Shown here piece by piece: positions 30,525 through 36,935 of a stretch of DNA of 64,000 nt. The notes below the pieces were generated by a model that ran no database searches, was not told the DNA's origin, and was given only the letters and a program-made list of their open reading frames with translations. Source of the stretch: Lachnospiraceae bacterium (GTDB lineage Bacteria; Bacillota; Clostridia; Lachnospirales; Lachnospiraceae). The position numbers and the translations under genes are program-made. Numbering within the stretch: position 1 is the stretch's first letter; each line of letters starts with the position of its first letter. The stretch is from NCBI GenBank assembly GCA_017473115.1, contig JAFUNC010000006.1:1-64000 (forward strand). The letters run 5' to 3'.

Positions 30525-31283
30525 ATGGTAAATGTAAAAGGGAAATGGGCGTTCATTACAGGTGCAGCAAGAGGAATCGGATATCTGTCCGCACTTTTTA
30601 TGGCGGAGAGAGGATGCAATCTTATTCTGCACAGCAGAGACTTGGAACATACCCAAAAAGTTGTTGCGGAGTGTGAGGCTTTAGGTGTAAAAGCAGTGGC
30701 GGTTGCGGCAGAACTTGTGAATCCGGACAGCGTAAAAGGAATGCTCGCTGAGATCGATCAGTTGGGTGTGGAAGTTGATATCGTTTTAAACAATGCCGGT
30801 ATGCAGATTGCATATCGCACGGAATATTTTGAGACTCCGGTATCGGATTATACGGACAGTTTCTTAATCAATACAATTGCGCCGGCATTGATTTGCTATC
30901 ATTTTATGCCGAAGATGAAAGAAAAGGGCTTTGGACGTATCGTAAATACCACCAGCGGTATCCGTCTGGATCCTTATCAGGCAGGATATTCCGCAAGTAA
31001 GGCGGCATTGAATAAAATTACCGTGGATTTGGGATATACCGTTGATGGTACGGATGTTATTTTAAGTTTGGCAGATCCCGGCTGGTGTCGTACCGACCTT
31101 GGCGGAAATCAGGCACCTAATTCTCCTGAAAGCGCATTGCCCGGCGTTTTGGTTGGTGCTTTTGTAGATGACCAAAAATCCGGCAGATTATTCTCTGCCC
31201 AGGACTTCGCAGGAATGACTTTGGAAGATGCTGTGAAGATGGCGGAAGAGAAGATTCAGCCTTTGGAATCTTATGCTGATTAG
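30525..31283 (+). CDS. Short-chain dehydrogenase/reductase (SDR)
   Basis: A 252-residue classical SDR with the cofactor motif TGAARGIG (residues 12-19), NNAG near 87-90, and catalytic Ser and YSASK near 149-153. The substrate cannot be told. Start at 30525 behind CAGGAGG. It lies before the long palindrome and the acid-activation operon but has its own upstream region, so co-regulation is not shown. No terminator other than the palindrome follows. Confidence 0.88.
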   Translation: MVNVKGKWAFITGAARGIGYLSALFMAERGCNLILHSRDLEHTQKVVAECEALGVKAVAVAAELVNPDSVKGMLAEIDQLGVEVDIVLNNAGMQIAYRTEYFETPVSDYTDSFLINTIAPALICYHFMPKMKEKGFGRIVNTTSGIRLDPYQAGYSASKAALNKITVDLGYTVDGTDVILSLADPGWCRTDLGGNQAPNSPESALPGVLVGAFVDDQKSGRLFSAQDFAGMTLEDAVKMAEEKIQPLESYAD

Positions 31284-31314
31284 AAGTAATCTCTGCCTTG
31301 TGATTTAACAGACC

Positions 31315-31555
31315 GGATATTTCAGCCGGATAAATTGGAAGATATATTCATTGATGCAATGCTGTACAGATATTTGTATTCCGTAAAGAACCGTTTTCAA
31401 CTGCATCAGCACTTAATGAGCAAGAAGTATTTCTTGCGAATTTAGTACTGCTACGTAGTTGAACGAGCGAGAGCGTGTTCTGTTGGAATACAAAATAATC
31501 TGTACGGCATTTGTTGATTTCTAAGCAATCCAATCAATCCGGTTGAAATCATATT
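31315..31555. repeat. Long palindromic element, copy A (minus orientation), about 240 bp
   Basis: The outer arms 31316-31381 and 31485-31555 pair (for example CCGGAT with ATCCGG-like, GTACAGAT with ATCTGTAC, TGTATTCC with GGAATACA). The core 31382-31484 folds again (CAACT/AGTTG and GCAAGAA/TTCTTGC). Read on the minus strand, its core matches the plus-strand core of the element at 35707-35931 over about 110 nt, including paired changes in both sides of the same stems. No reading frame of note. It lies between an SDR gene and the acyl-CoA synthetase promoter; T-rich sequence follows the plus-strand end. Confidence 0.8.
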
Positions 31556-31591
31556 TTGTTTTTACAAAGCAAAGATTACATCCCGAAAACA

Positions 31592-31620
31592 TTGACCGAA
31601 ACGGCTTTTAATGTTATATT
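31592..31620 (+). promoter_or_regulatory. Promoter of the acyl-CoA synthetase / iorAB operon
   Basis: TTGACC (31592-31597), 17-bp spacer, TATATT (31615-31620). Confidence 0.75.
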
Positions 31621-31624
31621 AGTG

Positions 31625-31648
31625 GTTAGACGCTTTAAAGCGTTAAAC
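31625..31648 (+). promoter_or_regulatory. Putative operator sharing a motif with the symporter gene
   Basis: GACGCTTTAAAGCGTTAAAC holds the perfect palindrome CGCTTTAAAGCG (31631-31642) and lies at about +1 to +20 of the promoter, where a bound repressor would block transcription. CTTTAAAGCGTT is repeated exactly before the symporter gene at 36902. Confidence 0.6.
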
Positions 31649-31682
31649 TAAACAAAAGTGATAGATTTGGAAGGGGATTAAA

Positions 31683-35122: not shown

Positions 35123-35698
35123 ATGGCAAATACAACGAAGAATATTATGATTGTTGGTGTAGGTGGTCAGGGTACACTTCTTACCAGTAGAATTTTGGGC
35201 GGTATTACCGTGGCAGCAGGATATGATGTAAAATTGTCCGAAGTTCACGGTATGGCACAGCGTGGCGGTAGTGTAGTTACCTTTGTCCGTTATGGTGAAA
35301 AGGTGGCGGAACCCATCGTAGAAGAAGGTCAGGCAGATGTTTTAATTGCATTCGAGAAGTTGGAAGCATTGCGCTATGCACACTTCTTAAAGAAAGATGG
35401 TGCTATTGTAGTAAATGACCACAGAATCGATCCGATTACGGTAGTAACCGGAGTTGCGCAGTATCCTGAAAACATCATTGAAAATTTAGAGAAAGAATAC
35501 AGTGTATATAAAGTAAATGCGATGGAAGAAGCATTGAAACTCGGCAATTCCAAGGTATTTAACATTATTGTTCTCGGTGTGGCTGCTAAGCACATGGATT
35601 TTTCAAAGGAAGCATGGCTTGAAGTCATTGAGAAAACAGTTCCGCCTAAAACAGTGGAAATGAATAAAAAAGCCTTTCTTTTAGGTTATGAAAGTTAG
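35123..35698 (+). CDS. iorB: Indolepyruvate:ferredoxin oxidoreductase, beta subunit
   Basis: The 191-residue beta (gamma-like) subunit: NIMIVGVGGQGTLLTSRILG at the N-terminus, VKLSEVHGMAQRGGSVVTFVRYG, and PADVLIAFE-like region ADVLIAFEKLEALRY. It pairs with IorA in the alpha2beta2 complex in the cytosol. GGAGGTG precedes ATG two bases after the iorA stop, so the subunits are made together. Likely role: salvage of arylacetates to aromatic amino acids, or the reverse in fermentation. Confidence 0.95.
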   Translation: MANTTKNIMIVGVGGQGTLLTSRILGGITVAAGYDVKLSEVHGMAQRGGSVVTFVRYGEKVAEPIVEEGQADVLIAFEKLEALRYAHFLKKDGAIVVNDHRIDPITVVTGVAQYPENIIENLEKEYSVYKVNAMEEALKLGNSKVFNIIVLGVAAKHMDFSKEAWLEVIEKTVPPKTVEMNKKAFLLGYES

Positions 35699-35706
35699 AT
35701 AAGAGA

Positions 35707-35931
35707 GTCCCAATTCTCATGTTTGCATTTTTAATCGTGGAATGTTGTATAAATTATTTTACATTCCAACAGGACACACTTTCGTTCGTTTGCCTGACGT
35801 AACAGTACTAAACTCACAGTGCATTGCATTTCTGTTCGTTAAGTACTGACGCAGTCAAAAACGGTCCTTTACAGAATGAAAATATTTATACAACAAGTAT
35901 CAACTTAGAATGCAAATAAAAGAATTGGGAC
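35707..35931. repeat. Long palindromic element, copy B (plus orientation), about 225 bp
   Basis: GTCCCAATTCT (35707) and its partner ending AGAATTGGGAC (35931) open arms of about 60 bases each with scattered mismatches (TTTGCATT with AATGCAAA, TTGTATAAAT with ATTTATACAA). The core, about 35767-35876, is the same as in copy A at 31375-31485 read on the other strand. Where the copies differ in stems, both sides change: AGAAC/GTTCT in A is AGGAC/GTCCT in B. TTTTTT follows the right arm, so it may also end the iorB transcript. Confidence 0.8.
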
Positions 35932-36886: not shown

Positions 36887-36890
36887 CATA

Positions 36891-36935
36891 AATGCTTTAA
36901 CACTTTAAAGCGTTTAACTTCTAAAGTTTAAAGCA
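36891..36935 (+). promoter_or_regulatory. Putative operator sharing CTTTAAAGCGTT with the iorAB operon
   Basis: GCTTTAA (36894), CTTTAAAGCGTTTAAC (36903) and TTTAAAGC (36927) lie in a row starting four bases after the -10 box. The middle unit matches the operator at 31632 in 12 of 12 bases (CTTTAAAGCGTT). Confidence 0.6.

Follow-up and report, generated by a model that had tools for sequence, protein, structure and literature searches.

REPs are described, in passages of PMC3733652, as paired inverted units located downstream of open reading frames. The palindromes reported here resemble the REP/REPIN/BIME group, as it is portrayed in parts of PMC3733652 and PMC8266576, in being dispersed, intergenic, and downstream of genes, in the opposite orientation of neighboring units, and in their single-strand hairpin features. 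They differ from this group in that the palindrome family is 5–10 times longer, carries a structured GNRA tip that is replaced independently of the stem, and holds a conserved GTA inside the stem at a bulge (alignment columns 67–69), while inspection showed no end tag. In addition, the Y1 transposase was not found in three copy-rich genomes, with one gene in a further genome, G001. A second group, the bacterial MITE-like repeats, is characterized in sections of PMC2229807 as shorter than 200 bp and as bearing, in most cases, TA ends and target duplications. With ERIC/RU-1, RUP, NEMIS/Correia, RPE, and YPAL, covered in the same sections, our elements share a non-autonomous nature, long stem-loops and, in some copies of the genus, terminal inverted repeats. 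In contrast to the MITE-like repeats, they measure 212–294 bp, have GTCCC tips, show a clear duplication in two copies only, and possess a conserved tip common to elements with different outer ends. A third comparison is with the quasi-palindromes maintained by template switching, which according to parts of PMC8794818 undergo double compensatory changes similar to those seen here; unlike them, the present family keeps a conserved non-Watson–Crick tip and exchanges it between loci. A search of the open-access PMC literature returned no description of this palindrome family.

Two related palindromes and their relatives

In the window, by which we mean the whole 64,000-nucleotide stretch of Lachnospiraceae DNA under analysis, a preliminary description had recognized two long palindromes, copies A and B, with related cores in opposite orientation. 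Repeat search, BLAST, and folding confirmed both at or near the positions given there, and the inverted match between them was recovered by repeat search and by BLAST (75.9% identity, query positions 1–145). Copy A is indeed a palindrome, but the extent first given for it (31315–31555) was too short; read from the fold, it covers approximately 31286–31579. Copy A sits between the stop codon of an SDR gene (31283) and an AMP-binding ligase gene (31683), and copy B begins 8 bp past a POR-domain gene that ends at 35698. Their features are as follows.

31286..31579, plus strand: whole palindrome of copy A (arms and core), ends set by eye from the fold
31286..31377, plus strand: left arm of copy A, complementary to 31490–31579, from folds
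31378..31489, plus strand (the GNRA strand, read as folded): core unit ATTCC...GGAAT of copy A, from the alignment of cores, position by eye
31412..31445, plus strand: apical stem and hairpin loop of copy A, with a T·T mismatch (31414/31443) and tandem G·A/A·G (31418–31419 with 31438–31439)
31451..31452, plus strand: conserved two-base bulge CT of copy A, between the inner and middle stems, YT in the core alignment (columns 69–70)
31467..31474, plus strand: mini-hairpin GC-GAGA-GC of copy A, with a GNRA loop
31490..31579, plus strand: right arm of copy A, from folds
35707..35931, minus strand (the GNRA strand, read as folded): whole palindrome of copy B, from inverted-repeat search and fold
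35707..35725, plus strand: left outer tip of copy B (GTCCCAATTC...), a terminal inverted repeat, from pattern matches
35763..35877, minus strand: core unit of copy B, from the core alignment and covariance model, ends by eye
35778..35785, minus strand: mini-hairpin AC-GAAA-GT of copy B, with a GNRA loop and a covaried closing pair, read from the sequence
35913..35931, minus strand: right outer tip of copy B, from pattern matches

Folding was compared with dinucleotide shuffles, which gave z scores of −8.1 (A, minus strand), −12.1 (A, plus strand), and −7.9 (B), and none of the shuffles folded as well. The RNA fold of copy A over 31280–31600 (z −12.1) reached −115.8 kcal/mol. When DNA folding energies were compared for four copies, the two strands were about equally stable.

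Two shorter sites lie nearby. An imperfect palindrome (GACGCTTTAAAGCGTTAAACT-like) is common to 31618–31649, upstream of the AMP-binding ligase gene, and 36888–36919, upstream of an SSF symporter gene, and the former site is conserved in the sister species G001 and G041. This palindrome is possibly an operator of the oxidoreductase-like cluster found here.

Copies A and B have many relatives. A covariance model built on 41 aligned cores identified 46 distinct copies in the same genome (2.23 Mb, 85% complete), counted as 51 rows minus five opposite-strand shadows and including many members of the model's own training set. BLAST with copy B alone located 24 other places in this genome at E < 0.001, and copy A located 24 others at E < 1e-7, many of them shared with those of B. 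Model matches were present in 27 of the 31 genomes of the genus, with G001 the richest, 44 matches in G000, 32 in G041, and 19 in G019, and 20 copies in G012. Order-wide, with at most seven candidates scored per genome and stricter filters, 59 of 392 genomes were positive; all 59 belong to one family, Lachnospiraceae, and the positives span 31 of 173 genera. A pattern scan of public genomes yielded at least 118 stretches. Among the 80 of these that were listed, 56 are titled Lachnospiraceae, and other titles name Eisenbergiella, Pseudobutyrivibrio, Robinsoniella, Marvinbryantia, broader Clostridia, or no taxon. Three listed titles (Mogibacterium, Muribaculaceae, and Eubacteriaceae) do not fit and may be mislabeled bins.

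Other collections were negative. Phage and plasmid collections searched with the copy A core gave no match, and three pattern matches in viral contigs lacked the matching 5′ half and were taken as chance. Rfam 15, searched with the window at the gathering score and with five loci, one of them holding copy A, at E ≤ 1, gave no match to the element.

Core anatomy, covariation, and pairing rules

Read on the plus strand for copy A and the minus strand for copy B, the core consists of a stem interrupted by a two-base bulge, an apical stem containing the T·T mismatch and tandem G·A/A·G, and a side mini-hairpin whose GNRA loop is closed by two covarying pairs. From a set of 188 copies, cleared of duplicate and opposite-strand shadow rows, the mini-hairpin was located in 173 with a pattern whose only fixed loop letters are G (position 1) and A (position 4), and loop position 3 was a purine in 172 of the 173. 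A looser pattern located it in 174 of 182 copies. A purine at position 3 of a GNRA loop is an RNA hallmark; in this family it suggests that the GNRA strand is the one that folds, with RNA as one possible form. The apical pattern CTTR..GA..GA..YTAG was present in 141 of the 188 copies. The core unit extends from ATTCC to GGAAT. Of 86 genus copies, 51 had both of these ends located, and in 48 of the 51 the unit measured 110–117 bp. Thirteen cores of one subtype, chosen by us, had these ends in common against diverse arms. Outside the core, the arms differ between loci yet pair within each locus.

Several copies show rearranged parts. In G325, three copies (L240, L389, and L390) have an extra flanking hairpin, two on the left side of the core and one on the right, as though the core had been inverted between its arms. 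In L113, L124, and L217, the outer arms or the whole element are tandemly duplicated on one side of the core.

Compensatory changes had been pointed out between copies A and B. The change from AGAAC/GTTCT to AGGAC/GTCCT is correct, and that from TTCAACT/AGTTGAA to TTTGCCT/AGTCAAA holds except for one C·T mismatch in copy B. Beyond the two copies, an alignment of 41 copies made from sequence only had 94.9% of its cells paired, versus 33–39% when the partners were slid along. In this alignment 25 of 36 pairs had changed on both sides, giving 196 double-change cells versus 56.0 after shuffling and 17–27 after sliding, and a single pair (75–118) accounted for 19 of the 29 one-sided changes. One of the five covariation measures, that of further pair types, was not above the shuffles (46 versus 47.3). 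A wider alignment, itself fitted to the model, showed changes on both sides in 35 of 36 pairs, with 558 double-change cells versus 149.5 after shuffling. With further copies and with covariation past A and B, the outcome that the preliminary description had named as refuting it did not occur.

The pairing rules look more DNA-like than RNA-like. Pairs were counted in the 126 of 188 copies that could be anchored on the T·T mismatch, which leaves out 62 unanchored copies and fixes the T·T count by construction. The selected core helices contained 2196 Watson–Crick, 15 G·U, 1 A·C, and 51 other pairs (total 2263), a selection that omits 14 of 34 positions chosen after the per-position counts had been seen: the T·T and G·A pairs, the C·A position −4, and gap-rich, bulge-adjacent, and end positions. 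Over all 34 positions, the counts were 2800 Watson–Crick, 42 G·U, 51 A·C, and 389 other (total 3282), and 42 of the 51 A·C fell on one fixed C·A position. The G·U share of core pairs is 0.7–1.3%, compared with 8.3% in tRNAs of the same genome (52 G·U of 627 in 28 tRNAs; Fisher p = 7e-23 versus the selected core set). The 15:1 excess of G·U over A·C in the selected helices is consistent with folding of the GNRA strand, whether as RNA or as DNA. Isolated core mismatches were 45 G·U versus 55 A·C, and the arm mismatches of the 188 copies, 113 G·U versus 109 A·C, showed no strand preference. Terminator-like hairpins under similar scoring had 61 isolated mismatches, including 36 G·U and 15 A·C.

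Tip exchange, insertion sites, and candidate movers

Through matching flanks, 19 loci in four species yielded 20 orthologous pairs, with identical core orientation in all. The core was closer to a same-genome paralog than to its ortholog in 17 of the 20 pairs (mean identity 0.89 versus 0.73), whereas the arms were closer to the ortholog in 18 of 20; the paralog taken was the best of many, and the same rule was applied to the arms. For L007, for example, core identity is 98% to L005, a copy in the same genome, and 76% to the ortholog L070, while arm identity (75–150 nt from the center) is 79–87% to L070 and about 52% to L005. Within genomes, the cores of 41 pairs were identical at 90% or more of positions; spacers were below 70% identity in 40 of these pairs (means 0.52–0.53, with flanks at 0.49), and L061/L065 was the sole pair sharing its spacer. 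At a fixed locus, the tip is replaced by the tip of another copy while the stem and outer arms persist.

The nature of the changes between orthologs was also recorded in 25 comparisons, some of which share loci. Double Watson–Crick changes numbered 85 in the core versus 8.5 expected for independent sides, and 81 in the arms versus 15.9. Single-side changes amounted to 87 in the core (23 G·U, 16 A·C, and 48 other) and 259 in the arms (43, 65, and 151, respectively), and double changes left unpaired to 13 and 49. Because the core is nearer to a paralog than to the ortholog in most pairs, whole tips must have been exchanged, giving many double changes at once. Selection that keeps the fold and not the sequence, as first proposed for A and B, is therefore not the sole source of the compensatory changes.

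Mobility had likewise been suggested, and element-free sites in sister species bear this out. A site was called empty by alignment together with the lack of a model match at E ≤ 1 with filters off. The sites of copy A and of L003 are empty in both G001 and G041. The L010 and L006 sites are both empty in G041. In G001, the L010 site is taken up by other DNA that the model does not match, and the L006 site contains a divergent copy (28.3 bits, E 0.0004). For L005, neither species gave a convincing copy (best E 0.8–0.95), and the match of the site in G041 was one-sided. Both species carry an element at the L002 and L004 sites. At the site orthologous to copy B in G041, the element could not be aligned; the model, run with filters off, matched weakly (17.4 bits, E 0.13), which may represent a decayed or divergent copy. 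The G001 contig stops before this site. Exact insertion borders were not obtained from the empty sites because the intergenic DNA is too diverged.

Of 86 genus copies, 14, with lengths of 212–228 bp, are bounded on both sides by terminal repeats resembling GTCCCRATTYG. Copy A is without the GTCCC tip, and by eye other genera have different outer ends. Two of the 14 copies have a target duplication matching at 7 or more of 8 bp, versus 0.1 expected with lengths of 2–10 bp tried; L061 matches at 8 of 8 and L065 at 7 of 8 bp. These two copies are probably young, and L061/L065 is the one case of whole-element copying among the genus pairs compared. Over 182 copies there were 18 repeats of at least 6 bp versus 8.5 expected, several of them self-palindromic. 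As this is no clear excess, a general target duplication was considered unsupported.

With respect to genes, 114 of 176 copies are closer to a stop codon and 62 to a start codon. An orientation bias, a feature already raised in the preliminary description, appeared in tandem gene pairs: the GNRA strand was antisense in 64 and sense in 40 of 104 (p = 0.024), in an ORF-based recount without annotation that left out 23 orthologous copies. Among the matches listed, 28 neighboring pairs within 1.3 kb, collected by hand, comprised 20 (+,−), none (−,+), and 8 direct, one of the 20 being orthologous to another.

No mobilizing gene was found. When 150 flanking proteins, drawn from the 161 available in the wider-family set (310 in all), were assigned to 227 Pfam families, the 25 commonest families included no transposase. 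Y1_Tnp (PF01797) occurs in 17 of the 31 genus genomes, including one gene in G001, and had no match in G000 (85% complete), G041 (97%), or G019 (74%). The Y1 transposase was set aside as the mover on the lack of a match in these three copy-rich but incomplete genomes, though G001, which has the most copies, carries one gene. As a hairpin nuclease that might start tip exchange, SbcD was the obvious candidate; it scored over the cut-off in 8 of the 31 genomes, among them G012, and was set aside on having no match over the cut-off in G000, G001, G041, and G019. An autonomous relative was sought with the tip pattern (at most three mismatches) in the 31 mostly incomplete genomes, and no larger element emerged. 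An autonomous gene between close inverted copies was also discarded as a candidate, the ORF being a lipoprotein in three pairs about 1 kb apart; beyond these, ORFs between copies were translated for L160 and taken from ORF lists for L453 and L454. Integron attC boxes were dropped since the box-like letters are not conserved across subfamilies.

Two further observations concern individual genomes. In G005, contigs 3, 4, 8, 10, 13, 16, and 21 carry fragments of a Y1 transposase gene, several at contig ends, which suggest a multicopy IS200-like element breaking the assembly. Three homologous lipoprotein genes (33–53% identity over the aligned parts), at L167 on contig 6 of G000 and at L451 and L452 on contig 12 of G041, each have one copy of the element upstream and another downstream. 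The upstream copies are 75–79% alike, the downstream copies are 78–89% alike, and the DNA outside is unmatched. The gene and its flanking copies make a possible moving cassette.

Interpretation of the palindrome family

We read A and B as a mobile non-coding palindromic element of Lachnospiraceae that acts as folded DNA and undergoes concerted tip turnover, and we assign this reading a probability of about 0.5. Dispersal, the multicopy state, the emptiness of some sites in sister species, the conserved asymmetric tip of about 110 bp, the scarcity of wobble pairs, and the replacement of tips in place are observed. A family with a shared fold and a hairpin DNA element, both put forward in the preliminary description, are supported by these results. 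The folded DNA would take the form of a cruciform or of a hairpin on transiently single-stranded DNA. The palindrome would extrude or be copied as a hairpin, in which one arm may template the other, and the tip may be templated by other copies. Arm-to-arm templating would leave arms that vary from locus to locus and still match each other, and tip-to-tip copying would produce concerted evolution and sudden "compensatory" double changes. The GNRA loop, tandem G·A, T·T, and bulge on one strand are probably recognition features of a candidate protein acting there. Several findings count against this reading: single changes between orthologs are not rare, G·U exceeds A·C in the selected helices, loop position 3 is a purine, DNA fold energies scarcely separate the strands, target duplication is not general, the B site of G041 may hold a decayed or divergent copy, and neither a mobilizing gene nor, over the cut-off in four genomes, SbcD was found, though the genomes are incomplete. 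Gene conversion between 110-bp repeats at 75–85% identity is expected to be inefficient.

The tip itself could be the mobile unit, which we entertain tentatively as a less probable view. A folded module of about 110 bp would then home, directed by structure, into the apex of resident palindromes and replace the tip there. No insertion at a sequence target would take place, and the palindromic arms would serve as landing pads.

It is doubtful that the family is a mobile repeat carrying a structured RNA, whether an sRNA or an element acting in mRNA stability or attenuation, with selection at the RNA level keeping the fold. The covariation in both alignments (25 and 35 of 36 pairs), the loop purine in 172 of 173 copies, the tandem G·A and U·U motifs, the strong folds, and the location nearer to stop codons would suit such an RNA, but its G·U pairs are 6–12 times rarer than those of tRNAs, its arms show no strand bias, and its tips are replaced wholesale. 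With orthologs removed, the GNRA strand is more often antisense to tandem genes, and Rfam gave no match. The RNA reading, which the preliminary description had offered beside that of hairpin DNA, is weakened accordingly.

An ordinary MITE mobilized by a transposase in trans, with a hairpin that merely follows from palindromy and a tip similarity due to ordinary gene conversion, is unlikely. The GTCCCRATTYG-like repeats on 14 genus copies of 212–228 bp, the two copies with duplicated 8-bp targets, and the whole-element pair L061/L065 are what a MITE would leave, but they are set against the outer ends that differ between genera and a conserved asymmetric tip with GNRA, G·A, and bulge. The tip pattern showed no larger element in the 31 genomes, and the commonest flanking families included no transposase.

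We hold it improbable that the family is a REP/REPIN-like single-stranded DNA element moved by a Y1 (HUH) transposase. Its size of 212–294 bp is not the 20–40 bp of such elements, no unpaired GTAG or CGTC end tag was seen, and three copy-rich genomes lack a Y1_Tnp match, although the inverted pairs among the matches listed (20 to 0), the preference for gene 3′ ends, the strand-specific hairpin with its bulge, the lack of a general target duplication, and the single Y1_Tnp gene of G001 are in keeping with it. That the hairpins have no function, replication template switching creating and mending them and conversion homogenizing the tips, is very improbable: template switching can create and maintain hairpins and multibase compensatory changes (in parts of PMC8794818), and the double changes with few wobble intermediates agree with it, but pure arm-to-arm templating should erase the T·T, G·A/A·G, GNRA, and bulge, and one model finds the core in 31 genera.

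The reading of A and B as a mobile element acting as folded DNA suggests that in Lachnospiraceae, an abundant family of bacteria, a candidate protein may recognize a single-stranded hairpin. Covariation is commonly taken to be the strongest evidence for a functional RNA. Among these palindromes the covariation is very strong, yet the pairing rules look more DNA-like and, as the orthologous loci reveal, much of it comes from whole-tip exchange. Compensatory changes can thus arise without an RNA gene, and one route by which they do so is shown here. The palindrome family provides a test case for the origin and upkeep of hairpins, for mobility directed by DNA structure, and for false positives in RNA discovery.
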